DNA of 39,238 nt from Microcaldota archaeon (GTDB lineage: Archaea; Micrarchaeota; Micrarchaeia; Anstonellales; Bilamarchaeaceae), in assembly GCA_013425455.1 (NCBI GenBank), contig JACCLI010000047.1, positions 1 through 39,238 on the forward strand, read 5' to 3'. This document shows, in pieces, positions 3 through 35,312 of this stretch. The translations under genes and the position numbers were made by a program. Position 1 is the first letter of the stretch; every line of letters begins with the position of its first letter. Below the pieces are notes generated by a model. It was given only the letters and a program-made list of their open reading frames with translations, ran no database searches and was not told the DNA's origin.

Positions 3-131
3 AATGAGATAACCATGTTCTCGATAATCTCCATAATCATAATAGCCATAATAACCTACAGCGGAACGAGGGCGATCTCGACCGCGCTGGGCGGGGAGTA
101 CTCCTTCGCCGGGATAACGAGGATGATATGA
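3..131 (+). CDS. C-terminal fragment (5' truncated by window edge) of a membrane protein, probably another member of the tandem membrane-protein family
   Basis: Frame 3 reads NEITMFSIISIIIIAIITYSGTRAISTALGGEYSFAGITRMI*. Hydrophobic helix followed by LGGE..., like the C-termini of the downstream paralogues; stop overlaps the next ATG (ATGA at 128-131). Confidence 0.6.
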   Translation, partial: NEITMFSIISIIIIAIITYSGTRAISTALGGEYSFAGITRMI

Positions 132-1009
132 TGAGGGGCGCGGCGATTTTCATAATTCTTCTTTCCCTCTCCTCGGCGGGCTGCGGCATACTGGATGATG
201 ATGCGAACCGGGCGTTCGCGGAGGCGATGCCCATAATAGGCGCGGCTATCGCGATCTCCATCGCAATAGCGGCTCTTGCCTACATGGCCGGGAGCTTCAC
301 AAAGGACCCGCACTTGCTCGTTTTCAGCAAGGACCAACTGTTCCACACATTCGTGTCCGTGCTTCTCGTGATGTCCATACAGGGGATATTCTACAGCGTC
401 TGCATGTTCGCAAGCGGGGCCGCGGGAGGGGAGATGCAAAACACCTCGCTCAACTATCTCCGCGAACTGAGGGTGGACGGAAGCCAGATGCTCACGCAGA
501 TAATGAAGAGGTCGATAGAGTACAAGTTCACGGCGGCTTACTACACCGCATACCAGGTCCCCTACATGGGAGGGGAGAGCTACTGGTGGGAGGCATACAA
601 CAACGCCTACGCGCGCCACCTGGAGATATTGTTCGACTTTGTCATGGCAGGGTATGTGAGCGCGGGGGTGCAGTACACCCTCCTGGGGATGCTGCCCCAG
701 ATTGCGCTGGGGGTGATGGTGCCGCTCGGGCTCCTGCTCCGCTGCATACCAAAGGCAAGGGACTCGGGGAACATGGTACTGGCACTCGCGCTCGCCCTTT
801 ATGTCGTCATACCGTTCACATACGCAGTGCACTCCTCCATGCGTGATACCTCGGTGCCATGGTTCACCGGGGCGCTGGACGATTCGGGCGTCTCGTTTGA
901 GAACGCCGCGCTCTACCTGTTCCAGACTGTGTTCCTGCCCAACCTTTCGCTGGTGGTGTTTGCGACCGCGGTTGGCGGGCTGATGAAGGTCGCGAAGGTG
1001 ATCCCATGA
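128..1009 (+). CDS. Polytopic membrane protein, tandem family member 1 (VirB6/TrbL-like by inference)
   Basis: N-terminal signal/lipobox-like segment (LLSLSSAGC), several TM helices, motif VPLGLLLRCIPKARDSGNMVLALALALYVVIPFTYA shared with the next four ORFs. Confidence 0.85.
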   Translation: MMRGAAIFIILLSLSSAGCGILDDDANRAFAEAMPIIGAAIAISIAIAALAYMAGSFTKDPHLLVFSKDQLFHTFVSVLLVMSIQGIFYSVCMFASGAAGGEMQNTSLNYLRELRVDGSQMLTQIMKRSIEYKFTAAYYTAYQVPYMGGESYWWEAYNNAYARHLEILFDFVMAGYVSAGVQYTLLGMLPQIALGVMVPLGLLLRCIPKARDSGNMVLALALALYVVIPFTYAVHSSMRDTSVPWFTGALDDSGVSFENAALYLFQTVFLPNLSLVVFATAVGGLMKVAKVIP

Positions 1010-3291
1010 AGGCGGCGCACATATTTGTACTGGCATTGTTCCTTTCGGCGGCCTTTGCGCAGGCCAGCGGGGAGGAAATACTTGTGCAGACACAGGAGCA
1101 TCCAACGCTGCTAGGGAACATAGCGAAGGACTGGCAGATTTACACAGTGGCGGTGCTGCTGCTGATGGCGGCGCTCGTGGCGCTTGCGTATGCCATCGCA
1201 AACTCGTTCTCGCTGCCGGACCTGAAGGCATGGGCGGACGTGGAGCTCGGGGAGATATTCGCCAGCGCGCTCATACTGATTTTCATAATAGCGGCAATAT
1301 CCTTCATAGATGTGAGCGTGGCCGGGACGATAGGGCCCAGCTTCCCGAGTTCCTGCGCAAAGCCTGGCTTCTGCCCCGCTAACATAGCGTCGGATTATCT
1401 TGAGAGCTACATCCGCGCGGCAGGTTCCGCCTACAAGATCACCATGATAAACAGCATAGACGCCGCGAACGACGCGATGGCAGGAAGCACGGTCGGGATA
1501 CAGGACCTCATATACGGATACCTCACATACAGGTTCAGGGACAACCCGCAGGAGATGATACGGGTGGAGATGTACGACCAGGTCCTGCAGAACCTCGCCG
1601 CGGTGCTGAACGCGCTGCTCGCGCAGAAATTCATGCTCCAGTTCATGACATTCAGCGTGGCGCCCATCGCAATATTCCTCGGCATAGTGCTTCGTTCCTT
1701 CTTCCTCACGCGGAAGATGGGGGGGCTGCTGCTGGCGTTCGGGCTCGGTTTCCTGGTGATTTATCCGCTCACATATGCGCTCGCGTGGTACACGCTGGAC
1801 GCGGCCATTTACGGCGCCCAGAAGGGCCCGAGCGGAAAGCTCACGCCCTGCCCCGAGGTGTGCCTGCCTTTCTCAAAAGTGGTGGACCTTTCCAAGACGC
1901 CGCTGGTGGAGGTTCCCATGGACACGGTGCGGGAGGGATTCCACGAGCAGTGCATGACCGAGCTGGAGCGGGACGGTATAGATGAAACTGGGCGCTCGAA
2001 CACGTGCATGAACGATTGCAGGGACAATGTGGACCCCACGGGGCGCTCGGCCAGCTGCATGGACGGCTGCACGGCGGAAATAGACGAAACGGGAAGGATG
2101 GTATCGTGCATGGGCGACTGCACACGCCTCTACCCCTTCAACTGCGAGGGGAGATGCGCGGAAGATTGTACGGCGCGCGGATATGTGGCGCCCGCGGCTG
2201 AGTTCCCGGACCCGGCCACCGTCGCGGCATGGGACGAGTGCATGCTCCCGTGCATGGAAAGCGAGAACTGCGATGCCACCGTGGAGGAGAAGACATTATA
2301 CTGCCAGGAGAACGAATGCCCTCCCGTAATCGGGGAGCTGGCAAGCGGGCTGGAATATTGCCAGTTATACAATTGCGGCGTGCTGGCTGGATATGCGGGG
2401 AACGAAACCGCATATTGCGAGGGCCAGTGCGTCCCGTTGGACGGCTTCGGAGGAAGCCAGGAAGAGTACTGCAACCACGAGACGGACAACATGCTTGCCC
2501 AGCTGGGGAAGGAGGGCGGCGTGGCGGTAGGAAGCGGCGCGGACTACCATGAGTATGGATATTGCCCCGCGGACCCGTGCGGGTTCCCGATCCCATACCA
2601 CAAGAAGGAGTGCCTGGGTTACCGGGGCGTTCCGAACATATGCAACACAAGGCCGTTCGTGGCCGAAGACCCCGCGTATGCGATGATGGACGCGAGCGAG
2701 CTGGTGGACGGGTGCCCCGCGGAATGCAGGACGCTTGCGCCAATGAAGGCGGGGAGCGGATGCTACAACAAGAAGAGCATAAGGCAGGACGACGGCACCT
2801 ACAAGAATTCTACGATATGCCCTTCGCAATGTATGTGGATGACGGCGGGCGGATACAAGGACCCTACCTGCCCCGCCGAGTGCAGCCGGTTCTATCCTGG
2901 CACTCCGCAGGCGCTCTGGGATGCAAAACTTTCCAGCGAGACCTGCGTATACATAATACCTGATGTTGTTTTTGACGAGCCGGACACGTGCTCGCAATGC
3001 GCGTTCGTGGCTGAGAAGGGGCTCACCATGGAGCCCGCGATGATATGGGACTGCACCGCGTTCTGCGGGGCGCCCAGCTCGACCGTGATGGGGCAGGACC
3101 CTGCGTCCATGACAAACAACATAGGCGGGATGCAGGGGCCGACCGATGTGATTGCCGTGAGCAAGCTGATGGTGCCAGCATATGTGCTCCCGTTCTTCTG
3201 CCTCGCGGTCACGCTGATGTTCATCATGACTTTGTCGCCAATGCTTGGCGGGGACATGGACATACCCGGGATGATGAGGATGATACAATGA
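1006..3291 (+). CDS. Polytopic membrane protein, tandem family member 2, with large Cys-rich extracytoplasmic insertion
   Basis: Signal peptide; IFLGIVLRSFFLTRKMGGLLLAFGLGFLVIYPLTYA family motif; about 420-aa Cys-rich insertion; C-terminal TM and LGGDMDIPGMMRMIQ. Confidence 0.9.
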   Translation: MKAAHIFVLALFLSAAFAQASGEEILVQTQEHPTLLGNIAKDWQIYTVAVLLLMAALVALAYAIANSFSLPDLKAWADVELGEIFASALILIFIIAAISFIDVSVAGTIGPSFPSSCAKPGFCPANIASDYLESYIRAAGSAYKITMINSIDAANDAMAGSTVGIQDLIYGYLTYRFRDNPQEMIRVEMYDQVLQNLAAVLNALLAQKFMLQFMTFSVAPIAIFLGIVLRSFFLTRKMGGLLLAFGLGFLVIYPLTYALAWYTLDAAIYGAQKGPSGKLTPCPEVCLPFSKVVDLSKTPLVEVPMDTVREGFHEQCMTELERDGIDETGRSNTCMNDCRDNVDPTGRSASCMDGCTAEIDETGRMVSCMGDCTRLYPFNCEGRCAEDCTARGYVAPAAEFPDPATVAAWDECMLPCMESENCDATVEEKTLYCQENECPPVIGELASGLEYCQLYNCGVLAGYAGNETAYCEGQCVPLDGFGGSQEEYCNHETDNMLAQLGKEGGVAVGSGADYHEYGYCPADPCGFPIPYHKKECLGYRGVPNICNTRPFVAEDPAYAMMDASELVDGCPAECRTLAPMKAGSGCYNKKSIRQDDGTYKNSTICPSQCMWMTAGGYKDPTCPAECSRFYPGTPQALWDAKLSSETCVYIIPDVVFDEPDTCSQCAFVAEKGLTMEPAMIWDCTAFCGAPSSTVMGQDPASMTNNIGGMQGPTDVIAVSKLMVPAYVLPFFCLAVTLMFIMTLSPMLGGDMDIPGMMRMIQ

Positions 3292-4358
3292 AGCGCCTGC
3301 TGCTGTTGCTGTTCCTGTTTTCACTCTCCTTTGCGGTTGATGAAACGCCGGAATGGATCCCGATAGCGCTTCTTGCTGTCATTGCCGGGCTCGGAGTCCT
3401 CATAATATTCTATCTTATCAGCTATGTTGTTGAGGCGGACCAGATGAGGGCCATGGCCATATCCGAGATGTGGCAGGTGGTCATCACTGGGGTGATGATA
3501 GCGGGGCTGATAGGGGCGCAGGCGCTCGCCACCGAGTTCGGGTCCGGGATGGCAAAGGATTTCGGGGCCGAGGACGGGGACACGCACATGGATTTTGCGA
3601 TAAAGGTGACGCAGGAGACTGTTGCTTACCAGTGGGCAACCCTCATGGACTTCACCAACAACATCGTAATTCCGATGGGCGACCTCGCGTCCCTTTCAGG
3701 CAACTGCTGGCTGTTCGGAGTCGCTTTCACCTATTCGGGATGCTCGAGCATAAACGTGCCCTTCTCGTCCGCATCGCTCGCTGCGAGGACGATGGCCATG
3801 GCGATACTGGCGCTGAATTCCCAGTTGGTGCTGCTCAACCTGGCAAGCAGGTTCTTCTTCCCGGTCCTTCTCCCGCTTGGCCTCTTCCTGCGGACCTTCC
3901 ACGTGACGAGGGGGACGGGGGGCGTCCTCATCGCCTTTGCGGTGGCTTTCTATTTCGTGTATCCGCTGGCGACCATCATAACGAAAGGGATGTCGGACGA
4001 GGTGCCCCTTTCCGCATTGGGCATCCATTATCCTGAACCACCAGCCATAAACCAGGTGGGTGCGGACGAGACGTGGGAGTTCAGCAACGTTTACACGTTC
4101 GAAGTTCCGGCGGAATGCGACCCATTCAAAACCTATGATTATGGGGATGGGGGCCAGGTTGAAGGATTCGGATATACGCAAACGCAGATAAACTATCTCC
4201 TGAACGAGAACATGCTGGACCCGCTGCTGTTCATTTTCATGATAAGTGGAATATTCAACCCCGCGCTTAGCATATTGATGGCGCTTGCGGTGCTGCGGCC
4301 TCTGACAAGAGTATTCGGGACCGAGGTGGACGTCTCAGCCCTCGGGAAGGTGTCCTAG
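3288..4358 (+). CDS. Polytopic membrane protein, tandem family member 3
   Basis: ATG at 3288 overlaps upstream TGA; signal peptide MKRLLLLLFLFSLSFA; LPLGLFLRTFHVTRGTGGVLIAFAVAFYFVYPLA motif; ends FGTEVDVSALGKVS. The listed ORF from 3045 is an N-terminal over-extension. Confidence 0.88.
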   Translation: MKRLLLLLFLFSLSFAVDETPEWIPIALLAVIAGLGVLIIFYLISYVVEADQMRAMAISEMWQVVITGVMIAGLIGAQALATEFGSGMAKDFGAEDGDTHMDFAIKVTQETVAYQWATLMDFTNNIVIPMGDLASLSGNCWLFGVAFTYSGCSSINVPFSSASLAARTMAMAILALNSQLVLLNLASRFFFPVLLPLGLFLRTFHVTRGTGGVLIAFAVAFYFVYPLATIITKGMSDEVPLSALGIHYPEPPAINQVGADETWEFSNVYTFEVPAECDPFKTYDYGDGGQVEGFGYTQTQINYLLNENMLDPLLFIFMISGIFNPALSILMALAVLRPLTRVFGTEVDVSALGKVS

Positions 4359-4363
4359 GTGTT

Positions 4364-5524
4364 TTGATGGTGTGCATTGAAGGCGGACTGGACTGGCTGT
4401 ATTCCCTTTCCCTGCTGTCGCTCGGGATGACGCTTGTGGTTATAGGGGTAGCGTATGCGCTCGGGCAGCTGCTGAGCAACCCGCAGTTCAACGTCTGGGC
4501 GAAGACCGAGATATTCCAGGTTTTCGTGTCGTTCTTTTTCGTACTGCTTGTGCTCTTCCTGAGCGACTCCCTGTGCCATTTCAGGTACGGGGACCTGGCG
4601 GGGCTGGGGCCTGCGGAGACCAACCCGACGAGCACCTCCAACCCGTATGCATATGCGCACCCGAGCATCTCGGCTGACGACAACGTGATAAACGCCTCCG
4701 GCAAATATCTCGCGAATGTTGCATATTTCATAAACACGGAGATGAGGGCGGCGCGCTCCCTTTACGGGATTTCCGAGGAGGCGTCCAGGTATTCGCGCAC
4801 CCCCTGCATGCCCGCGGCGACCTTCTGCCTCTACGGGACAAGCGGCTACACCGTGAGGCCGTACTCCGGGCTGAGCAGCTGGGTGCAGATACTTGGGTTC
4901 TCGCTCTATACGGACACCGCGTCCTACCTCACGGTGCTGATACAGATGGCGCTGCTCGCGTTCATATCCGGGGGAGGGATAATGGCATACCTTCCGCTGG
5001 CGATAGTATTGCGCTCGCTTCCGTTGATGAGGCAGCTGGGGGGCGGGTTGCTGGCGATATGCGTCGCGCTTTTCCTCATATACCCGGCGCTCCTGACCAT
5101 GGAATCGCTGTTCTGGAACCCGTACCAGATGCTCGGGGACGGATGGAGCACGCTGGCGGATGCGGCGGACAGCATGGGGAGGGGGTTCACCTATGTGACC
5201 GCGGGGGCATATGCGGAGACCATGGCGGCGGCGCTCTTGCTGGCGGGCGCGCTGCTGGACATTGCGGCGATAATAGCGGTGGTGGTTGCCGCGGGGTTTG
5301 TGAGCGCGGTACTTATGATAATAAGCGCAGGAGCAGTTTCCCAGTGGACGCTGACGAGCCTCCATGCGGCGATACAGGTGAGCATGCAGGCGTCATCCAT
5401 ATCTTTCTTGACGGCAACGTTCCTCCTTTCGCTGAATATAATAGCCATAGGGGCTTCCGCGAGGGAGCTCGGGAGATTGCTGGGGCAGGAAGTTGACCTG
5501 AGCAGATTGATGCAGGTGTTGTGA
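4364..5524 (+). CDS. Polytopic membrane protein, tandem family member 4
   Basis: LPLAIVLRSLPLMRQLGGGLLAICVALFLIYPALL motif; ends LLGQEVDLSRLMQVL. Confidence 0.88.
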   Translation: MMVCIEGGLDWLYSLSLLSLGMTLVVIGVAYALGQLLSNPQFNVWAKTEIFQVFVSFFFVLLVLFLSDSLCHFRYGDLAGLGPAETNPTSTSNPYAYAHPSISADDNVINASGKYLANVAYFINTEMRAARSLYGISEEASRYSRTPCMPAATFCLYGTSGYTVRPYSGLSSWVQILGFSLYTDTASYLTVLIQMALLAFISGGGIMAYLPLAIVLRSLPLMRQLGGGLLAICVALFLIYPALLTMESLFWNPYQMLGDGWSTLADAADSMGRGFTYVTAGAYAETMAAALLLAGALLDIAAIIAVVVAAGFVSAVLMIISAGAVSQWTLTSLHAAIQVSMQASSISFLTATFLLSLNIIAIGASARELGRLLGQEVDLSRLMQVL

Positions 5525-6532
5525 ATGGCTGAAGAGGATTTGTTCCACTTTGCTTTTTCGGGATGGGGAGCGGGCGGACCCTGGTTCGTCAACTGCCTTC
5601 TCGCCATCATAGTCGTCGCGGTGATAATGGGCACCGTATACGCCATCTCATACGCATTCAATTTCATGAGCTTGAAGAGGTTCGCGGTTTCGGAGTTCTA
5701 CCAGCTCGCGGCCACGGCGGTTCTTGTGATTTTCCTGGTTGCAATCGTGGAGAACGGGCAGGCATTCTTCCTCTCCAAATATGGGGGGACGGTCATCTGC
5801 CAGGGAGGGGAGATAGACAACACGGTTCAGGCGGCCATGTGCCGCACCGAGGAGAGGCTAACGTATTTCGACAAGACGTTCAATTCCATAAAGGACAGCA
5901 GCGAGCTCGCGGATAAGGAGCTGCGTTACTACTCGTCGATGTCGCTTTTCGGCATAATATTCTGGCAGGGGAACTTCGACGCAAGCCTGCACAAATATGT
6001 GGAGACGCAGCACGCAATAGCCTCCAAGCTCGTCTCGCTCATGATTTCGCTGAACAGCCAGATGTTCGTGCTGAAATACATAAAGGAGAACATGCTCGTG
6101 TTCTTCCTTCCGCTCGGGATAGTGCTGAGGACTCTGCACTTCACGAGGGGAATCGGGGGCTTCTTCATAGCCCTTGCGGTGGCGCTGTATTTCATCTACC
6201 CGGGCATGCTCTTCATAATGGACGCGTCCTATGCGCCCCCTCCGCCGCAGGCGCCCTCTTCCATTTCCAACCGGGCGGACCTGTGCAACATACCTGTTTT
6301 TTCGGGAATGTCCCTGGGCGCCACCACCGCGGAGGGGCAGAGCACGAGGAGCGCCGCTTCCATATCAGTGAGCACCTCCAGCCTCGCGGCGTTCGTGTCG
6401 CAGGTGTTCGTAAAACTGTTCTATGACAACATGGTGGCGCTGGCGATTGCGGTGACGATGATGAGGTACGGGACCATGCTGCTGGGCGGGGACAGCAACG
6501 TTTTCCTGCAGATGATGGGGAGGTGGGTGTGA
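5525..6532 (+). CDS. Polytopic membrane protein, tandem family member 5
   Basis: LPLGIVLRTLHFTRGIGGFFIALAVALYFIYPGMLF motif; ends MLLGGDSNVFLQMMGRWV; starts directly after the previous stop. Confidence 0.88.
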   Translation: MAEEDLFHFAFSGWGAGGPWFVNCLLAIIVVAVIMGTVYAISYAFNFMSLKRFAVSEFYQLAATAVLVIFLVAIVENGQAFFLSKYGGTVICQGGEIDNTVQAAMCRTEERLTYFDKTFNSIKDSSELADKELRYYSSMSLFGIIFWQGNFDASLHKYVETQHAIASKLVSLMISLNSQMFVLKYIKENMLVFFLPLGIVLRTLHFTRGIGGFFIALAVALYFIYPGMLFIMDASYAPPPPQAPSSISNRADLCNIPVFSGMSLGATTAEGQSTRSAASISVSTSSLAAFVSQVFVKLFYDNMVALAIAVTMMRYGTMLLGGDSNVFLQMMGRWV

Positions 6533-9500
6533 TGAGGGGCATTTCTGTTGTTCTGGCTTTTGCTTTCGTGTTCGGGGCGCTCATGCTCGCGGGATGCGTG
6601 GCTCCGCAGCCATCGTTCAGCAACTGCTGCATGTACGACAACGCGAGCAATGATGAGCGATGCATAACTGCGGACAGGACGGAGTACGATGCGCACGGGT
6701 GCAACATGCTGAACATGACGTGCAACGTAACGCTCGGAGAGGGGGACGACACCGAGCTGCTCCCCATCTGCCCGAAATCCGAGCTTCTGAAATGCAACAG
6801 CAGCTGCGTGGGGATGTTCTGCGGCTCTTTTGAATTTGACCCGCGGCCGCCCATCTCCCTTGATGCGGAAGACATGAACGATTCCCGCGACACCGAGAAC
6901 GCCGACAAGGGCCAGTTCGGAGGGACGAGCAAGGGCGGGGCGAAGGGGCTTTATAACGGAGAGTGCCGGCTGCTCAACATGAGCCCGGCGACCCTGCGCG
7001 CCACCGGGAACACGAACGGGGGCTTCGCGCTCAACAGCTTCAGGTTCGGGGTCGGGGACTCCTTTGCGGAATTTGACGAGGCGAACATGTACTATCCGCT
7101 CACGGATTTCGCCTGCAAGATAAACCAGATGGGGACTATAGACAGGTATGCGAATTATGCGATACCGAATTCGCTAACAGAGGCGGGGACGAGGATTTGT
7201 GCGCCTTCCGGGGACAACAAATGGGTGTGCGTGCCGAGCACCAGCTACTCGGACGTTTTCTTTGAGACATATACATATTTTGACTGCGCCACCAAGTGCC
7301 TCCTGCAATTTTCCGGGGATTTCCCGGGCATAGACCCCAACAGCGCCTACCTCACGGAAAGGAACGGGCAGATGCTGGGGAACCCGTTCGCATACGGGGT
7401 TGCGGCGGATTCGCCCTGGGGAAATCTCATCAACGACAAGGACTACAAGAGCTCGGCTGAGGATACGGCATTTTATGATGGTTATCCCCTCGGGTACAAT
7501 TATTACGGGGCGGATTTCGAGAGGGACGACCGCGTGCTGGGCCCGAACAGGGGGGGCATCGAAGGGCTCCTCGCGGAGAAGGGAAGCGGTGAATTCGGGC
7601 TGCAGAGCGACGTGATGGACTATTATTCGGGCGAAACGGCGGACCTGCCCACCATGAGATGGGACCACCTGCTCGAGAACTTCATAACCGTGGAGAGGGA
7701 GCCGCACAGGATGTATGAATTCCTGCTCACCTACCATTCCGTTTATGCGGACCAGTTCCAGAACGGGCATTATGAAGATAATGGAACCTGGAAGAACGGG
7801 GCGGAGTTCGAATGCACCATGGAGGAGAACGGCTGCCTTTCAGGGTATTGCAACATATTCGATTATTCGCGCGGCGTATGCGTGAACATGGATAATTTAT
7901 CAAAGGACGCGAACTGCGACTGCGTGTATGATTATATTGAAGGGGGGGTGGCCTGCACCGGGAAGAAGCTGTTAAGCTCGCCTTCGTGGGACAGGTACAA
8001 CGACGCGACCTCGAACATAGAGGTGGCGACAACCCTTGCCGCTCCCATAGACCGCGTAGGGGATGGCCCCTACACCCACACATCCATGCCTTCCAAGGGA
8101 AGGACGGTGACGTTCAACCTTGATAGTACGGATTACATAAGCGGACTGGCGGAATCGGACAGGGACGACATAGACAGGTCCTTCCTCGTGATATTCCTTG
8201 GCGGGCAGAACGCCTTCCCGACATACACTGCCTACCAGCCACCCACTGATGACACCGCGGCCCTGTGGAACCAGACGCTCACGATTCCGCAGGTCCTTTC
8301 CCCGGAAAAATGGAGCGGCTGCAGCAGGTATTCGGACTGCGGAAAATTCTATACGACCTTCGTGGACCAGTGCGTGCCTACTTATGAGGAGGACCGGGAG
8401 TTCTACAGGACTAGCTTTGGCGTCTGCTATTCCGGCAGCCCTATGACGACCACTTCATCTTCGATTTTTGGGGGGCTGATTGAGACAAGGGTCCCCTATT
8501 CATACGGGCAGTACCTCAAGCCGGACGGGAGCATAGATGTGGAAAACTGGAACTGCCAGGGGCTCTTCAACTTCGACAAGAAGAAAGTGACTGGAAAGGG
8601 CGACCCTTCAAGGCAGGTCTATTGCTACGCGCGGGACAAGGACGGGAACTGCGAGGCATATTCCACCGCGGCGCTTATGATAAGGGGAAGGGATGTTGAG
8701 TATGAGGACGAGGATAGAAATCTGGTGGAGGGGCAGGCGTTCGGGAAATGCATCCTGGATGGGAGCGGCAACCTGCGCACCAAAACATACGGATATTGCG
8801 ACCAGTGCAGCTTCCTGACAATGGCGAAGGAGAAGGTGGTTGCCCTCCCGGAGAACAAGTTAGACCCGGGCTACCAGGCGTTGCGCGTGGATGGAAGCGC
8901 GCAGAGGAAGGACAATAAGTACTGCCCCTCGCTGATGATAAGCACCATTTATTCCCCGGATGCGGCCTTTGAAATAGAACGAGCCTCGTCTCCGCTTGGG
9001 GAGTGGGAGGGGCAGGGAGTGCACGCTTCGAGCGACGACCCGGAGGATTCGTATTACAGGAGCCAGTGCAGGATGCCGGATGGAAGCGAGGTGGGGATGG
9101 AGGAGGCATGGCCGGATTACCTTCCTAATGCGTATTATCTGAAAACAAAACTGAAGGACTACCTGCAAAGGAACATAATGCCGGTGCTGTTTGCGGATGA
9201 TGACGGATTGTACAGGGCACGCACCACGGACAGGGAGCCATACAAGGACAAGCCGGTGCTGCAGCTGGGCCTTAGCGACCATTTTGAAGCCGTCCAGGCG
9301 GGCACGACCACGAACCCATTGATTGCATCTCTCTGGAAGCGCAACCCCTCCATTTTTGACAAATACGGCCTGCCCGGGGACCAGCCATATGCATACACCG
9401 CACAGGGAACCTATCTTGCGGATTCGGTCATGAACCTCGGGGCCGGAATAATAGTTGTGAAGAACCTGAGCACCGACTTCGTGGAGGGCAGCGACATAGT

Positions 9501-10794
9501 GGCCGGGCTGGAGTGGAGGTCCGGTTCTGTGAGGCTCATGTGCCCGAACTGCATGGTAGCGGTCGCCGCCGGATACAGCGACGAGGGCTCCGGCCCCCAG
9601 ACAAGGATGCGGCTTGTCTCACGGCTCTTCGGATACGGAATTAGATACGGGGCCGGGACGCCGCTTTGGGATGACTATTCATACAACCTATCCTGCGCCA
9701 ACGGGGAGGTCGCGTGCATTTATGAGCGCCTGGATTATGTGGATGTGATTGCTGTGAAATGGGGGTTGGGCGGGCGCAATTCCCATTGTGACATCGAGGA
9801 CGAGCAGGAGAGGTTCGCGGCGATACTCGCGGACGAGATGGAATTCGGCTCCAAGATGCTGCGCAGGTTCGGCAAGCCGGTCGTGGTGACCGACCTCACC
9901 ATAACAAGGCACGAGGGCCTGATTTATGATGAAGGAGTGAGGGACTGCTGGAACGAAACGAGCGCCGCCAAATTTATGGAATACCTCGGCCAGCACACCG
10001 AGGACCTGATAAAGAGCGGGCACATCGGGATTATTTACGGGGACTGGACGTATGACCACTCGAGCGGCACCACCGGCCCCACATATGTAAGGACAAAGGA
10101 GAGCGCGGCTGGTGGATACGTGAGCGGATACAGGGGCTCGTTATATGAGGGGACCCTGCTTGCCTCGAGGGACTTCTCCGGGTATGGAGAGATGACCTCG
10201 CTCATGGAGATACCGGTCAAGGAGAACTGCACCTGCGTCCCCTGCACGTCCACCGACCCGGCGGAGATATGCAATGGAAAATTCGCGGGAAGCGGCGCCC
10301 TCTGCGAATGGGAGGGGGAGCGCGTGATGGTCAAGTGGCCGGACGACTGCATAACCGAAGATGCGTGCATGCCCGGGGAGCAGATGGCCGAATACATGAT
10401 GGACTGCGTGCTTGTGAGCGGAGGGCAGGAGACCGAATTCAGCGTGGACGGGGCGGAGGTCGTCGGGAATCCAGAATTGTACAAGCAGATGATCGCATCA
10501 ATAGAGAATACGGTGGACAGGCCGTGCTTCATGAACAAAACCTACGGCAAGACGCAGATCACAAGGTTCCTTTCCCATCCCCTTCTCTTCAGGAAGGACG
10601 GGAACATGAGCTATACCTGCAATCCGCTCTCCGTGGCGCAGGGGGCAATGTGCGGGCCGCTCCCGAGCTTGGACCTTGAGCAGATGAGATGCACCCTGAG
10701 GATAAAGACCGGATGGCTGACGCCCGGCGGGGTTCCGAGCCCCGGAGGGTTGCCGTCGCTGCCAAGCGGGCCTGGGGGGCCCATCGGAGGATAA
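6532..10794 (+). CDS. Giant Cys-rich secreted, probably lipid-anchored protein (about 1420 aa)
   Basis: ATG overlapping the upstream TGA; signal peptide with lipobox-like FGALMLAGC; many Cys and Asn-X-Ser/Thr sequons; no internal TM evident by eye. Confidence 0.85.
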   Translation: MRGISVVLAFAFVFGALMLAGCVAPQPSFSNCCMYDNASNDERCITADRTEYDAHGCNMLNMTCNVTLGEGDDTELLPICPKSELLKCNSSCVGMFCGSFEFDPRPPISLDAEDMNDSRDTENADKGQFGGTSKGGAKGLYNGECRLLNMSPATLRATGNTNGGFALNSFRFGVGDSFAEFDEANMYYPLTDFACKINQMGTIDRYANYAIPNSLTEAGTRICAPSGDNKWVCVPSTSYSDVFFETYTYFDCATKCLLQFSGDFPGIDPNSAYLTERNGQMLGNPFAYGVAADSPWGNLINDKDYKSSAEDTAFYDGYPLGYNYYGADFERDDRVLGPNRGGIEGLLAEKGSGEFGLQSDVMDYYSGETADLPTMRWDHLLENFITVEREPHRMYEFLLTYHSVYADQFQNGHYEDNGTWKNGAEFECTMEENGCLSGYCNIFDYSRGVCVNMDNLSKDANCDCVYDYIEGGVACTGKKLLSSPSWDRYNDATSNIEVATTLAAPIDRVGDGPYTHTSMPSKGRTVTFNLDSTDYISGLAESDRDDIDRSFLVIFLGGQNAFPTYTAYQPPTDDTAALWNQTLTIPQVLSPEKWSGCSRYSDCGKFYTTFVDQCVPTYEEDREFYRTSFGVCYSGSPMTTTSSSIFGGLIETRVPYSYGQYLKPDGSIDVENWNCQGLFNFDKKKVTGKGDPSRQVYCYARDKDGNCEAYSTAALMIRGRDVEYEDEDRNLVEGQAFGKCILDGSGNLRTKTYGYCDQCSFLTMAKEKVVALPENKLDPGYQALRVDGSAQRKDNKYCPSLMISTIYSPDAAFEIERASSPLGEWEGQGVHASSDDPEDSYYRSQCRMPDGSEVGMEEAWPDYLPNAYYLKTKLKDYLQRNIMPVLFADDDGLYRARTTDREPYKDKPVLQLGLSDHFEAVQAGTTTNPLIASLWKRNPSIFDKYGLPGDQPYAYTAQGTYLADSVMNLGAGIIVVKNLSTDFVEGSDIVAGLEWRSGSVRLMCPNCMVAVAAGYSDEGSGPQTRMRLVSRLFGYGIRYGAGTPLWDDYSYNLSCANGEVACIYERLDYVDVIAVKWGLGGRNSHCDIEDEQERFAAILADEMEFGSKMLRRFGKPVVVTDLTITRHEGLIYDEGVRDCWNETSAAKFMEYLGQHTEDLIKSGHIGIIYGDWTYDHSSGTTGPTYVRTKESAAGGYVSGYRGSLYEGTLLASRDFSGYGEMTSLMEIPVKENCTCVPCTSTDPAEICNGKFAGSGALCEWEGERVMVKWPDDCITEDACMPGEQMAEYMMDCVLVSGGQETEFSVDGAEVVGNPELYKQMIASIENTVDRPCFMNKTYGKTQITRFLSHPLLFRKDGNMSYTCNPLSVAQGAMCGPLPSLDLEQMRCTLRIKTGWLTPGGVPSPGGLPSLPSGPGGPIGG

Positions 10795-10826: not shown

Positions 10827-13800
10827 ATGCGGAAGGCTTTGCTGGCCGTGCTTTTTCTCATTCCAGTACTTTTTTCCATAGTCCCGGATTTGGGCGCAGG
10901 GGCTTATGGCGCTTCCGCGCCGGGCATCTCCAACTCACGGGTCCGCATCGACATAAGCGGGGTGCACCTCATAAATCCGCAGGACGTCTGCCCCTCCTGC
11001 AGCATATTCACAACACAGCCTTTCATGGCTCCCTCCATAAACGAGGAGGAGAAGACCGTTTCCGTGAGCATGGGCGTGATAAACGAGAGCGGAGTGACGG
11101 CGGTGGAGGGGGCGACCCTTTTTGCATATGTACAGAAGGCTGACGGGAGCAACTCAAAAAGATGCAGGATATACACCAATGCGAACGGGAGCGCGAAAAT
11201 AAGCTACAACCCGGTCGACTGCCAGGACGGGTGCACTGTCAAGTTTTTCTTCTGCTGCGCCAACCCCGTCGCGCTCGCCTGCGTGCTGGAGCCCTGCCTA
11301 GGCGAGCCCGTCACCGCGTATAGCGACGTCCCAGCATGCGGCAGTGATGGATACGGGGGAGGGGAATGGCCCTCCAACGCCACGGTGGGTGGGCAGGAGA
11401 TACAGCTATACCCGACCCTAGAAGAGGCGGCGATACCCCCGAGGGCAGTGCTGCCCGGATTTGAATACACTTTTACGCTATGCTTCCCTCTCCTCATGAT
11501 ATTCGGCTTCCTGGGTGCGGCGATGTACGCGTCGGGCAGGGACCCGTTCGCGATGTTTTCATTCTATACCCCAAGGTTCACGCGGGGCATGGAGAGGCCC
11601 ATACAGGGAAGGGGATACACCATCCCGGGCTCTTCAATAATCAATGTCGCGATGAAGGCGACGGATCTAGGGACAGGGAAAACCTCCGCAAATGAGATGT
11701 TCGTTAGTTCGATGGAACAGAGCCCGATGGTCGCAAAAACCAAGGGCGCAGCTGGTGAGTTGGGAGGAGCCAAAGGAACCGCAACTGAAAGAGCAGGTGC
11801 AGGAAGGGCTAGTGCAAGCCAGGAGGAGCTTACAAGCAGGACGTCCGCTGACCGGATGGTTGCCGGGGGTTCCGGCGCAGTCATCGGCCAGAGCATCGGG
11901 GTTTCCGAGAGCATGATGCGCCCCGGCGAGGCAGGCGTTGGCGTGGGAACCGCGCTCCTTGCGCTGCTCGGGATAATGCTGAGGTTCTCAAATGCTCCCT
12001 GGCTCACAGGAGGGCTTTCACAAAGATTGATTGGAATTGCCGATGCATGGCAGGCCGAAAGGGTCTCGGGCTATTTCCAAACGAATGCGGCGCCAATAGC
12101 AGGAAGCATGCACGTTCGGTTTGACTCGGAAGGGAATGTCAGCCAGCTCACATATGTAAGCCCGCAAACCGGTGAAACGGTGACGGTTGAGGGTGTCGAC
12201 AAATGCAGGGCATTCGTAGATTCGGTGAGGAACGGCCTTGCCGCGAATGCCCAGGCGGGCGATAATAATGCGATTGATGGCCTGAACCAGTTCAATGAAC
12301 GGGTTGCGAACCTCCAGCACCCTGTGACCGGGGCGCGGGCAATGCTGATTGCTGAGGGAAGCAGGGAGGGTGGCCCTACTGGGGAGGTTCTTGCTGCAAT
12401 GGCAACGCTTGCAGACCCGAGTTCTTCTCCTGACAAGAGGCGCCAGGCCCTTGAAACTATTGCCAATTCGGACCAGGTTTCTGGGGATGTAAAAATAGCG
12501 GCGTTCGTTGCCGCAAGCGACGGAATGAATTATCAGCAGTTTGCCGCTTTTGTTGGTGCGGAAGGTTCTTCTGCGGCCAGGATATTCGGGGAACTAACTT
12601 CAAATTCTGCGGCGCTAAATGAAAGGCTGGACGGGAAGATTGACGGGAACATGCTCGGCGCGATAGGCGCGGCTGCGGAGAGGCTCGAGCAATTAAATGC
12701 CGGCAGGAGGGAAGGCCAGGCGGACAGCCTCGGCATCGGAACTATTGTCGCAAACATGAGGAGCGATATGGGCGAATGCCGTGGGGGCCCGGAAGTGTTT
12801 GTTTTCAGGAGCGGAACGGAAGATTCAGCCGCCAGGATGGCTGCAATGGGCCTCTCCGGAGCCGCATTGGATATGCGCATAAGCCTTGACGCGTTGGGCC
12901 AACGCACCGCAGAAAACGGCGAGGTAACCGACGGAATCGGCCAACGCCTGATTCTCGGCCATTTGAGTGCTGATGCACGCGCTGAGGTGGAGGCTGCGAT
13001 GGACAGCGAGGGCAGGGTGGACATATCCAAGCTAAGCGGAAATGCGAGAGGAGAATTGGGCAGTGTGATAGAACAACAGGTGAGAGGGGCAATTGTCAGT
13101 GAATACAATGTCGCCTACTCGCAACAACAGGCGACGGATTTCAAGAATGGCAACTCGGGGGAGGCACTTACCCTGAGAGACTTCCAGGAGGCGCTTGGGA
13201 ACTATGCGGCGGCAACACAAAGCTCCTACGAGATCATGAATGCGCAGGTTATGGGCCCTGCAAGGGAGGAGGCGCTCGCACTAATAGAGAGGAATCCGAA
13301 TCCAGTGGACAACCTGGGCAGGCTCACCACGATGGTCCTGCCTGAACAACTGGCAGCAAATGATGTGAGGGCTGTCATGGAGAGGCGGGGGATAGACCCG
13401 GAACTGGCAAGCATCATGGTTGGGATAGCGGGGGCGCAGGCGCAAGTAGGCTTCATTAATGGCCGCTATGAGGAACGTCCTGATGGCCAGAGGGAGTACG
13501 TACCGGGCCTCAGCGAAAGGCTTGGATTGCTGGCCATGGGGCCTACGGAATCCTACGGGCAGAGGGCAGACAATGCATATGCCAGCCTTGCTGAGATAGA
13601 CCGGCAGGTGGCTGAATTCAACGGCGCCATACAGACGCTTGACAATCCAAATGCGAGCCCGGAGGAGAAGGAACACGCGAGAGGGGTGGTCGCTGGGGGT
13701 ATGGAGCCATTTTTGGAGTACAAACGGGCCGAAGCCTCGCAGATTCTCGAAAACCCGGAAGCAAGCCAAGCGGACAAGGAATGGGCAACAAGAATTATGG

Positions 13801-14951
13801 CTTTGGACCCCGCCACCGCATTCACTGATGAGGGGCAGCGGGGGACACTCTGGCAGGAATACAATGCCCATATGGGGGAGCAGAAGGACCAGCAAAGAGC
13901 GGAAATGGAATTTGGAAGAACTAGGGAAAGCATATTTGCATCGGGGCCGCCTCTGGGCCAGCCTTCTAACGAACAGGAGAGGATAGCGGCGCAGGAAAGG
14001 GAAGCCGCCCTCCGGCAGGCGGTCGAGCAGTATACAACCTCCGCTTATTCACAAGCTGAAACCAAGCCAGACTCCGGACAGATTATACAGTTTACCATAT
14101 ACGGGGATCCGAATGCCAGGGAGATGCTCGATGCAGCAAGGCCCAACCTTCCCGCCACGGTCCAGGCGCAGCTTGACACGTTCCTGTCTAATACCGCATC
14201 ACAAGAAGAAAAATCACGTGCCCTGGACGTGCTTGTGCCCGCCCTCGATAATTATTATAGATATGCCGAAAATTCTGCCGATGACCGGCTCACTGCAGCG
14301 GACCGCAGCGAAGCTCAATGGGCAGTACACACTCTTACGACTTCCGAGGACTCCTCCGCCCGCCAACAAGCCGCAGAAAGTCTCCGCGAACTGAGAGGAG
14401 TGTCAGGTGAGGCGCAGCCTGGAATAGACGCGCTGATTGCTACGGCAACCGTGCCGCCTTCGCAGTGGACAGACGAGCAAAGGGCGAATCTCGGAGCTGT
14501 GTTGCCCAAGGTCCAGGAAAGGCTGGATATATATTTCGACACCACTGGCTATGACAGGGCGATTTCAAATCCAGATGGAACGAGGCAGGGGCTCATAAAC
14601 GATTATGCGAACGACAGGCAAAGCGAACTGAATGCGACCCGGGATTGGGCACAACAGGCAGGCACCGCTGCAGCCAGAACAGAGTACGAAACCGCGCAGA
14701 TACAGGTATCCCTTCTGGGAAATGAAGCGATAGACCGCTTTTACCAAAACATGGATGCGAACAGGGAGATTGCGGAAAGGGCCGCAAGGAACGTCACGGA
14801 ACGCGGATCAGAGAGTGTCGGGGCAGAGATTGCGGGAAGAGGCGGCTGGAGCTCCGAATACCAGGCTGCCGACAGCGCGTTTGCAGCAAGAAGGGCTGAA
14901 GAAGAGAGGCGCCGCAGGGAGCAGGGAGGCAGCGAAGGGGGGCAGAGGTAA
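10827..14951 (+). CDS. Giant membrane-anchored protein: signal peptide, Cys-containing ectodomain, TM segment(s), about 1100-aa Ala/Glu/Gln-rich predicted helical region
   Basis: Signal peptide MRKALLAVLFLIPVLFSIVPDLGAGAYG begins at ATG 10827 (the ORF from 10689 is over-extended); TM FTLCFPLLMIFGFLGAAMYA; C-terminus rich in charged residues (RRAEEERRRREQGGSEGGQR). Confidence 0.85.
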   Translation: MRKALLAVLFLIPVLFSIVPDLGAGAYGASAPGISNSRVRIDISGVHLINPQDVCPSCSIFTTQPFMAPSINEEEKTVSVSMGVINESGVTAVEGATLFAYVQKADGSNSKRCRIYTNANGSAKISYNPVDCQDGCTVKFFFCCANPVALACVLEPCLGEPVTAYSDVPACGSDGYGGGEWPSNATVGGQEIQLYPTLEEAAIPPRAVLPGFEYTFTLCFPLLMIFGFLGAAMYASGRDPFAMFSFYTPRFTRGMERPIQGRGYTIPGSSIINVAMKATDLGTGKTSANEMFVSSMEQSPMVAKTKGAAGELGGAKGTATERAGAGRASASQEELTSRTSADRMVAGGSGAVIGQSIGVSESMMRPGEAGVGVGTALLALLGIMLRFSNAPWLTGGLSQRLIGIADAWQAERVSGYFQTNAAPIAGSMHVRFDSEGNVSQLTYVSPQTGETVTVEGVDKCRAFVDSVRNGLAANAQAGDNNAIDGLNQFNERVANLQHPVTGARAMLIAEGSREGGPTGEVLAAMATLADPSSSPDKRRQALETIANSDQVSGDVKIAAFVAASDGMNYQQFAAFVGAEGSSAARIFGELTSNSAALNERLDGKIDGNMLGAIGAAAERLEQLNAGRREGQADSLGIGTIVANMRSDMGECRGGPEVFVFRSGTEDSAARMAAMGLSGAALDMRISLDALGQRTAENGEVTDGIGQRLILGHLSADARAEVEAAMDSEGRVDISKLSGNARGELGSVIEQQVRGAIVSEYNVAYSQQQATDFKNGNSGEALTLRDFQEALGNYAAATQSSYEIMNAQVMGPAREEALALIERNPNPVDNLGRLTTMVLPEQLAANDVRAVMERRGIDPELASIMVGIAGAQAQVGFINGRYEERPDGQREYVPGLSERLGLLAMGPTESYGQRADNAYASLAEIDRQVAEFNGAIQTLDNPNASPEEKEHARGVVAGGMEPFLEYKRAEASQILENPEASQADKEWATRIMALDPATAFTDEGQRGTLWQEYNAHMGEQKDQQRAEMEFGRTRESIFASGPPLGQPSNEQERIAAQEREAALRQAVEQYTTSAYSQAETKPDSGQIIQFTIYGDPNAREMLDAARPNLPATVQAQLDTFLSNTASQEEKSRALDVLVPALDNYYRYAENSADDRLTAADRSEAQWAVHTLTTSEDSSARQQAAESLRELRGVSGEAQPGIDALIATATVPPSQWTDEQRANLGAVLPKVQERLDIYFDTTGYDRAISNPDGTRQGLINDYANDRQSELNATRDWAQQAGTAAARTEYETAQIQVSLLGNEAIDRFYQNMDANREIAERAARNVTERGSESVGAEIAGRGGWSSEYQAADSAFAARRAEEERRRREQGGSEGGQR

Positions 14952-14957
14952 TCCCCC

Positions 14958-15269
14958 ATGCCAGAAACCCGCCCGATAAAAAGATTAAGACGGCACCTCA
15001 CGATTGAAAATTTGTGGCTCTATATTCTATCTATAATCAGGAGGGACGGCGAATGCTATGCGTATACGCTCCCGGACCAGATTGAGAAGGATTTCTACTT
15101 CAGACCCAGCAGAGTTATGGTATATATAGTATTGCACATGCTGGAGGGGGAGGGGCTCATCAAAAGCGAGCAGAAGGAGAGGAGGAAATATTACAGATTG
15201 ACGGAGAGGGGGAAGGAAACCCTGACCGAAGCGAAAAAGTATTTCAAATTGCTCTCCGAAACCTTATGA
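14958..15269 (+). CDS. PadR-like winged-helix transcriptional regulator
   Basis: IENLWLYILSIIRRDGECYAYTLPDQIEKDF...RPSRVMVYIVLHMLEGEGLIKSEQKERRKYYRLTERGKETL: PadR-type wHTH with wing. Confidence 0.8.
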   Translation: MPETRPIKRLRRHLTIENLWLYILSIIRRDGECYAYTLPDQIEKDFYFRPSRVMVYIVLHMLEGEGLIKSEQKERRKYYRLTERGKETLTEAKKYFKLLSETL

Positions 15270-25204: not shown

Positions 25205-25903
25205 ATGCGAAACCTTGCGTTCGCAATCCATCCGCATGAGATGGATGTTGCGATACGAAGGGCGAAGTCCTCGCTTCGGCTGCTTGAGGCCGAGCCATGC
25301 AAGGCACCCAAGGAAAGGAAATGGCCCATTCCGGAGCCGGTGCAGGTGGCTATGCTGAAGGCGATGCACCCGGAGATGGAGGGGGCGAGGATAAAGAGGC
25401 TGCTGCGGGACGGGAGGATGCGCCTGCCGCAAAAGAAGTACCATCTGGAAGAGGTAAAGAGGGCGGCGGTATTGGCGCTGGTTAAGCACCTTGGCAAAAA
25501 CCCCTTGTGCGTGCCGGACGAGGATTTTGAAAGGAATGGGCTGGGATGGCTTGTGAACAGGTACGGCTCGTCCTTCAAGGCGCTGAAAAGCGTCGGTCTT
25601 CTCTCTGAAAAGGACAGGCACGCGCACCGCTTCAAGAAGAAGCCCTGGACCTTCAGCAACAGGGAGAACAGGATAAAAGCACTGCGGGAGGCGGAAGAAA
25701 AGCTGGGCGGGAAGCCACGGGAGACGAGGCTGTGGCACCTCAAGGATGAATTCCCGAAGGTCCATGCGATGGTGATAAACTATTATCACGGCTCGGTCTT
25801 CGAGGCGTACGTGGATGCTGGCCTTGCCACCCGGAAGGATGAGGAATACATGCGCGCCGGGACCGAGAGGCTGAAAAGGAAGATTGCGAGGGAAGGCGGA
25901 TAA
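25205..25903 (+). CDS. Repeat-module protein, short paralogue of the 34053 protein
   Basis: AVLALVKHLGKNPLCVPDEDFERNGLGWLVNRYGSSFKALKSVGL and NRIKALREAEEKLGG...YYHGSVFEAYVDAGLATRKDEEYMR match the modules of the 34053-35312 protein. Confidence 0.75.
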   Translation: MRNLAFAIHPHEMDVAIRRAKSSLRLLEAEPCKAPKERKWPIPEPVQVAMLKAMHPEMEGARIKRLLRDGRMRLPQKKYHLEEVKRAAVLALVKHLGKNPLCVPDEDFERNGLGWLVNRYGSSFKALKSVGLLSEKDRHAHRFKKKPWTFSNRENRIKALREAEEKLGGKPRETRLWHLKDEFPKVHAMVINYYHGSVFEAYVDAGLATRKDEEYMRAGTERLKRKIAREGG

Positions 25904-34052: not shown

Positions 34053-35312
34053 ATGCTGATTACCATAAACCTCTTGCCGAAAGGAAGTGCTCAGACCAAG
34101 GTGCGGGAGCCTTTGGTGGAAAAACCAAGGAAAAGGAGGGAAATCCCTGATTGGCTGAAGGTTACGCTAGTCAGGAACAGCTGCGACTCCATAAATTTCT
34201 GGAAGGTGGCGGAAGAGGCGGGCATGAGAACGCAGTTCCTGGAATTCGCGGAGATGCACTGCAACAGGGAAAGGGAGGAAAGGCTGGCTTACGGCGGCAG
34301 GCCGAACAAGCGGGTGAAGGGAATCATAGCGCAGGCATTCGAGGACATGATGGGAAAGGCAAGCAATGTGCAGATACTCGATTGGCTGGAGAAGGGATAC
34401 ATCTGCATATACCGCTACAAGTGGGGCAGGGAAAGCGTAAGGAAACTCGCGGTCATTGGGCTGGTGAATGCCCTGGGGAAAGATGTGCGCGAGACGACGC
34501 AGGACGACTTCAATGATAATGGGCTGGGCGGGCTGCTCACGAACTATTACAGAGGCTCGCCTTACGAAGCCTTGAAGGATGCGGGCTATCTCATTCACCC
34601 TTGGGAAATGAAAACAGCGCCGCACATCTATGAGAATAGGGACAACCGGGTTGCGGCCATACAATGGGTGGTTGAAAAAATGGGGGGAGACCCTAAGACC
34701 ATCACCTCCGACGATTTCCACGAGAACGGCCTTCGCGGCGTGATGCCTTATTACGAAACATTGTGGGATATGGTCTCTGATGCGGGTTATGATGTGAAGC
34801 CGTGGGAGATGGAAATGACTCCAACCTCCTTCTATGCAGAAAGGGAAAACAGAATCGCCAGGGTGAGGTGGCTGGTGGAGAAGCTTGGTAAAGAAGTGAC
34901 GGGAATAACGCAGGATGACTTCAACGCCAATGGGCTAGGCAGGCTATTGGAGGGTTACTACGGCAATTCTCCGCACAAAGCGCTTGTTGACTCCGGCTAT
35001 GATGTCAAGCCGTGGGAGATGGCGAGGGTTCCTTTTGGGACCTATGATGAGAAGAAAAATAGGGCGGATGCAGTAAAATGGCTTGTTGAAACGCTGGGAA
35101 AGAGGGCAAGGGACATTACTGTGGCCGATTTCTACAATAATGGATTCTCCGGATTGCTTAAGTATTATAATGACTCTCCTTATTCTGCGCTTCTTGAAGC
35201 CGGATTGGTTTCTGAGGCGGATGAAGAATATATGAGGTCAAAACAACACACGCATAAGGGGAAACAGGGAACTGAGATGCCTAGCCCTCCCTCTAAGGGA
35301 AGTGAGAATTAG
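34053..35312 (+). CDS. Repeat-module protein with four ~67-aa modules, putative DNA/RNA-binding
   Basis: Modules beginning VRKLAVIGLVNALGK, RVAAIQWVVEKMGG, RIARVRWLVEKLGK, RADAVKWLVETLGK, each with DDF..NGL..LL..YY..SP..AL.DAGY..KPWEM. Confidence 0.8.
   Translation: MLITINLLPKGSAQTKVREPLVEKPRKRREIPDWLKVTLVRNSCDSINFWKVAEEAGMRTQFLEFAEMHCNREREERLAYGGRPNKRVKGIIAQAFEDMMGKASNVQILDWLEKGYICIYRYKWGRESVRKLAVIGLVNALGKDVRETTQDDFNDNGLGGLLTNYYRGSPYEALKDAGYLIHPWEMKTAPHIYENRDNRVAAIQWVVEKMGGDPKTITSDDFHENGLRGVMPYYETLWDMVSDAGYDVKPWEMEMTPTSFYAERENRIARVRWLVEKLGKEVTGITQDDFNANGLGRLLEGYYGNSPHKALVDSGYDVKPWEMARVPFGTYDEKKNRADAVKWLVETLGKRARDITVADFYNNGFSGLLKYYNDSPYSALLEAGLVSEADEEYMRSKQHTHKGKQGTEMPSPPSKGSEN
34437..35245 (+). 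repeat. Four degenerate tandem protein-coding modules (about 200 nt each)
   Basis: Protein-level internal repeat with consensus NR..AV.WLVEKLGK....IT.DDF..NGL.GLL..YY..SPY.AL.DAGY...PWEM. Confidence 0.8.

Follow-up and report, generated by a model that had tools for sequence, protein, structure and literature searches.

Six consecutive paralogous genes of a Micrarchaeota archaeon would encode six distinct channel or platform subunits of a type-IV-secretion-like membrane apparatus akin to the Ced system, an explanation which, taken whole, we regard as the best available and to which we give a probability of about 0.8. The stretch of DNA analysed here (the window, 39,238 nucleotides) is one entire contig (C7) of a 986 kb genome in 87 contigs (G000), that of a tiny and probably host-dependent archaeon. 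The operon at its start (operon 1) comprises the following genes.

3 to 131, forward strand: subunit a, C-terminal 42 residues of the first of six CedA/VirB6-like paralogues, known from its translation; the remainder lies past the contig end
128 to 1009, forward strand: subunit b, 293 aa, polytopic, placed by its tree clade b/B
1006 to 3291, forward strand: subunit c, 761 aa, polytopic, placed by its tree clade c/C
3288 to 4358, forward strand: subunit d, 356 aa, polytopic, with weak matches to the CedE and CedA profiles
4367 to 5524, forward strand: subunit e, 385 aa, polytopic, placed by its tree clade e/E
5525 to 6532, forward strand: subunit f, 335 aa, polytopic, placed with F in the tree and modelled with AlphaFold2 (m033eaf5f73a3)
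6532 to 10794, forward strand: giant 1, 1420 aa, predicted secreted, Cys-rich, with the lipobox-like start LMLAGC
10827 to 14951, forward strand: giant 2, 1374 aa, found at the same place in relatives
14958 to 15269, forward strand: PadR-like winged-helix regulator at the operon end, its position conserved in relatives

The original prediction had counted five, probably six, tandem paralogues, and six are borne out. In the relative G004 the first gene is complete (L022:10879-12168, 430 aa), and its C-terminus is almost the same as the tail at 3-131, which ends in ALGGEYSFAGITRMI; the operon therefore has six members, a to f. When the five complete proteins b to f were compared by BLASTP, nearly all pairs were significant, the best being g3-g5 at 1e-18, and every alignment took in the LPLG..LR..TR..GG...YP block, just as a shared central block had been proposed. 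The proteins are thus homologous and not unrelated, and no described transporter family accommodates them: a Pfam search of all operon members and proteins of the window found no fitting family, and a search of the PDB by sequence yielded nothing useful. Two details of the prediction stood in part. Overlapping ATGA starts occur at three junctions (128, 1006 and 3288), and genes e and f start without overlap, so that 'mostly' overlapping is barely fair; and of the C-termini given as LGGE, GTE or GQE, two read GGD and subunit b has no such ending. The AlphaFold2 model of subunit f (pLDDT 74, pTM 0.64), submitted to the Foldseek check that had been suggested, found no significant relative in the PDB, returning only insignificant matches to TTYH2 and microtubule proteins with a top probability of 0.33.

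Subunit c contains 41 Cys and has a Cys-rich insert of about 450 residues ahead of its last TM helix, a loop whose length and Cys content vary strongly. Giant 1 contains 53 Cys, and its C-terminal region (window 9022-10251) is predicted to alternate between alpha and beta elements (pLDDT 63), and weakly resembles the TIM barrels of glycoside hydrolases (top E 0.007), which we take as a hint only. Giant 2 combines a signal-like N-terminus, a small exterior domain, one or more TM segments and a long hydrophilic tail. The counterpart of the PadR-like regulator in a relative (L033:14473-14799) matches PF03551 at 3e-12. Genes for a membrane AAA ATPase and a zinc-ribbon protein lie upstream of operon 1 in some relatives, and were left out as parts on account of their inconstancy. 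Elsewhere in the window, a 419-aa protein (34053-35312) consists in part of several repeats of a unit of about 65 residues built around 'WLVEKLG...ITxDDFxxNGLxxLL..YY..SPxxALxxAGY', and a shorter relative of it is encoded at 25205-25903.

The family was present in 220 of the 246 Micrarchaeota genomes searched, several families being without it, and is therefore a candidate core machine of the phylum. A search of GTDB species genomes with an alignment of subunit f gave 32 loci; one lies in a record titled 'Candidatus ainarchaeum', and the record titles of the others are Candidatus Micrarchaeota archaeon, archaeon or uncultured archaeon. The synteny survey called for in the original prediction showed gene order to be conserved in relatives, orders having been rebuilt with a simple ORF caller by which small genes may be missed. 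The number of family genes was exactly six in every complete copy of operon 1 used for the tree (16/16), in six copies of a second operon (operon 2), and also in five hexads from sister orders.

This second hexad is present elsewhere in genomes of the window's order, and in the window's own genome lies on contig C26 (L035). No giant accompanies it and the Cys-rich insert is missing from its subunit C; insert and giants belong to operon 1 alone, and the LPLG..R..TR..GG core persists in both sets. In a 6x6 hhalign comparison of operon 1 with operon 2 profiles, the best partner of each subunit was the one at the same position, with the exception of d (1d scored 256 with 2D and 261 with 2E). The bootstrapped tree recovered clades a/A (98/92), b/B (99/92), c/C (98/96) and e/E (98/95), and less firmly f/F, which formed one clade in 74% of bootstraps; D grouped with e/E and not with d. 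One-to-one orthology at all six positions was accordingly rejected for d/D, a pair that an earlier quick tree had placed near each other. Among the sister-order hexads, the last four positions joined where expected, w falling with c/C, x with D, y with e/E and z with f/F, and u and v were at their expected places for one genome only; the deep details of the tree are unsure because its branches are long. The pairing in order of a-A, b-B, c-C, e-E and f-F nevertheless indicates that a whole set of fixed order was duplicated and kept, as is expected of subunits which hold fixed places in one complex. The lack of a clean orthology between d and D counts against our explanation.

The nature of the subunits is suggested by remote homology. 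For subunit d the top two NCBIfam matches were CedE (E 0.0021) and CedA (E 0.0097). The CedA and CedE profiles were run over the 246 genomes, Sulfolobus acidocaldarius serving as positive control; for either profile, the 30 best loci all fell within this family (57 of the 60 assigned by script and three contig-edge cases by coordinates), with best E-values of 2.4e-8 and 1.5e-6 for the two profiles. No family member reached the NCBIfam cut-offs of 330 and 400 bits for CedA and CedE (NF041796, NF053657), the best scores being 32 and 27 bits. Hexad profiles matched single lone-copy proteins from T4SS loci (see below) with 97-99% probability, and 29 unrelated polytopic control proteins from the same loci with at most 2%; the thirtieth control, a TrbL-like VirB6, reached 2-17% and took first rank with each of the four hexad queries.

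The link to TrbL itself was weaker. In five genomes searched with PF04610 (TrbL) at E<=10, no family member matched, and the single hit was a different protein below the cut-off, at 11.3 against 25.9 bits; as a route to the family this search was abandoned, having led instead to a separate locus encoding a TrbL-like VirB6. With a profile of 21 such TrbL-like proteins, subunit a scored 68% and subunit e 59%, in alignments of some 40 columns (controls 0.7%), and a single TrbL-like VirB6 query picked up hexad members with per-genome E-values between 4e-5 and 9e-4. These TrbL-like proteins do not themselves match PF04610 in Pfam and are therefore weak as an anchor, and R388 TrwI as a single target was not matched by the hexad profiles. 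As far as sequence comparison goes, the Ced system is the best anchor for the family. TrbL-like VirB6 matches were found in 33 of 296 Micrarchaeota genomes, mostly at a separate locus (L104-L119, L078), some of the weak ones being hexad members; in G029 a 314-aa protein which by eye resembles the VirB3/PrgI type follows the TrbL-like VirB6, and these loci are possibly conjugative elements.

Genomic context points the same way. A thirteenth family member stands alone, in G014 between an 81-aa 2-TM (VirB2-like) protein and a 259-aa 2-TM protein, which is followed by a 477-aa HerA/VirB4 ATPase; the ATPase of the lone-copy locus matches the Pfam families DUF87 (8.9e-17) and AAA_10 (1.6e-15). In sister orders (L082, L090, L100, L101, L080) it is the hexad that is followed by two 2-TM proteins and a HerA/VirB4 ATPase, the ATPase frame of L080 containing a stop, and in L082 and L090 VirB2-like proteins precede the hexad. 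A polytopic protein encoded beside VirB2 and VirB4, the mark of the VirB6 type, is hence found at the lone copy and the sister-order hexads, this adjacency being absent from the window, and a HerA/VirB4-class ATPase in the same operon, the mark of the Ced/Ted type, occurs in the sister-order hexad operons and the lone-copy loci. The VirB2-like profile matched the R388 TrwL pilin at 79% by hhalign (controls <=1.4%), and the VirB2-like 2-TM proteins gave E 0.049 with PF18895, below its cut-off. VirB3, VirB4 and VirB8, used as single-sequence targets, gave no match; for the 2-TM partner, which shows no demonstrable kinship to VirB3 or VirB4, 'B3B4N' is therefore a name only.

In the window's order neither hexad adjoins an ATPase. 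The ATPase that the original prediction had suggested looking for upstream of the window's operon, in DNA that lies past the contig end and is supplied by relatives, is not adjacent in these relatives either, the HerA/VirB4 gene lying elsewhere in the genome, in a separate operon of a 2-TM protein, the ATPase, a 2-TM CxxC protein of about 130 aa, a coiled protein of about 250 aa and a 2-TM protein of about 850 aa. Genes homologous to the final three lie behind the ATPase in the sister-order hexad operons. In the window's genome this cassette is split over contigs C5 and C50 and the lone-copy locus over C53 and C3, and the best NCBIfam matches of its ATPase are CedB (6e-20) and CedD (2e-19). 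The suggested VirB6/TrbL/CedA comparison is thus supported by the VirB2-like and HerA/VirB4 context and by remote homology to CedA and CedE, although PF04610 (TrbL) itself gives no match. As separate observations, the conserved ATPase cassette with its three uncharacterised genes travels with the hexad system (L097:2-5220 with L096:7608-8285); the lone-copy ATPase of G004 (L045:4057-7131, reverse strand) carries an intein-like insert directly after its Walker A motif (GxGKS), and that of the window's own genome (L098:167-1600) is uninterrupted; and in a membrane AAA ATPase near operon 1 (L030:14180-18391, reverse strand) the first AAA domain holds a comparable large insert, again with intein-like features.

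We envisage an ancestral minimal operon of a VirB2-like protein, a CedA/VirB6-like protein, a 2-TM partner and a HerA/VirB4 ATPase, whose single CedA/VirB6-type gene would have multiplied to six in an ancestor of most Micrarchaeota, the copies then becoming distinct parts, none replaceable by another, in an unchanging gene order. Within the window's order, the entire hexad would have been duplicated and separated from the ATPase operon, and the window's copy may have gained the Cys-rich insert in c, an exterior-anchored, giant Cys-rich lipobox protein, and giant 2, which might reach from the exterior to the cytoplasm. Because the Cys-rich insert and the Cys-rich giant occur together, operon 1 appears to be the edition with an exterior part. 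Subunits a to f would together form a single membrane channel or platform that the separate HerA/VirB4 ATPase would feed, with the giants as an exterior cap or host-contact device and with DNA (as in Ced) or a host-directed protein as cargo. Judged from these comparisons, assembly of a to f as a hetero-oligomer is likely, and a ring with one of each is possible; known VirB6 complexes are pentamers (PMC12857230) and therefore fit poorly with a ring of six. Scores below the CedA, CedE and TrbL cut-offs, the Foldseek search in which the subunit f model met no solved relative, the missing match to R388 TrwI, the distance of both hexads from an ATPase in the window's order and the 2-TM partner's want of kinship to VirB3 or VirB4 likewise weigh against the explanation. 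The fullest form of the proposal, an obligate hetero-hexameric channel made from six specialised VirB6/CedA paralogues, existing as two parallel editions of which one has a Cys-rich host-contact exterior cap, and present in most of this phylum of probably symbiotic archaea, is put forward tentatively, at rather less than even odds.

It could be argued instead that the hexad merely descends from a CedA/VirB6-like protein and now serves as a non-transporting membrane scaffold, by which the Cys-rich c loop and giant lipobox protein are displayed so that the cell can attach to a host or neighbour. The separation of both hexads from the ATPase in the window's order would suit such a scaffold, as would the confinement of the insert and the giant partners to operon 1; yet the core motif is conserved across both sets, and the same genomes keep the ATPase cassette, its genes arranged as in the sister hexad operons, so that we consider this reading unlikely. 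The diversity of the family and the strongly variable c loop could also be expected if the six were alternative, interchangeable channel subunits, used according to phase or host and never joined in one complex. Such alternatives would come and go freely, whereas every complete copy has all six genes in a single operon and in one constant order, which the duplicated set kept, and this renders interchangeable use quite improbable.

Still less credible is an unrelated family of polytopic transporters or permeases with an accidental similarity in one motif. The unmet curated cut-offs and the shortness of the link to TrbL-like VirB6 would agree with it, but the top CedA and CedE profile matches across the phylum all lie in this family, its operons are shared with VirB2-like proteins and VirB4/HerA, and the TrbL-like single query reaches hexad members. 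Six subunits of one Ced-like apparatus therefore remain our preferred explanation. If it is true, a homomeric membrane channel has given way to six different subunits that form a fixed set. To our knowledge, such a change is known for other ring complexes and not for VirB6. The system would also bear on how DPANN archaea exchange material with their hosts.

Among known systems, Ced of the Sulfolobales, which moves DNA (PMC11868833), consists of CedA, CedE, CedA1, CedB and CedD (PMC9905601, PMC11868833). The Micrarchaeota system is like it in being a reduced archaeal T4SS-like set of a polytopic CedA/VirB6-like protein, a VirB2-like 2-TM protein and a HerA/VirB4 ATPase, and in its remote sequence homology to CedA/CedE and CedB/CedD. 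The number of channel paralogues is one or two in Ced and Ted (PMC9905601, PMC11868833), in Ced CedA and the genus-specific paralogue CedE, whereas here there are six fixed paralogues, often in two sets, accompanied by Cys-rich giants and by three further genes in a conserved cassette. Ted of the Thermoproteales (PMC9905601) is a minimal VirB2-VirB6-VirB4 set, as is the lone-copy locus, and has a single channel gene and neither hexad nor giants. The VirB6/TrbL proteins of bacterial conjugation (PF04610; R388 TrwI) are likewise polytopic channel or platform proteins beside VirB2 and VirB4, and the TrbL-like Micrarchaeota proteins show weak profile similarity to the hexad core; the differences are that no PF04610 match occurs here and that the VirB6 assemblies known so far are built as homopentamers (PMC12857230). 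A T4SS is likewise conserved in the Patescibacteria, ultrasmall host-attached symbionts unrelated to the Micrarchaeota; it serves epibiotic growth, and for one strain virB6 is reported to be essential for growth. This points to a shared solution; the patescibacterial system is of the bacterial MPF-FATA class, and the available portion of that report describes no tandem channel genes (PMC12102498). In the open-access journal literature on Micrarchaeota or DPANN with these components, no such system was described, so that to this extent the original description of the system as undescribed holds.
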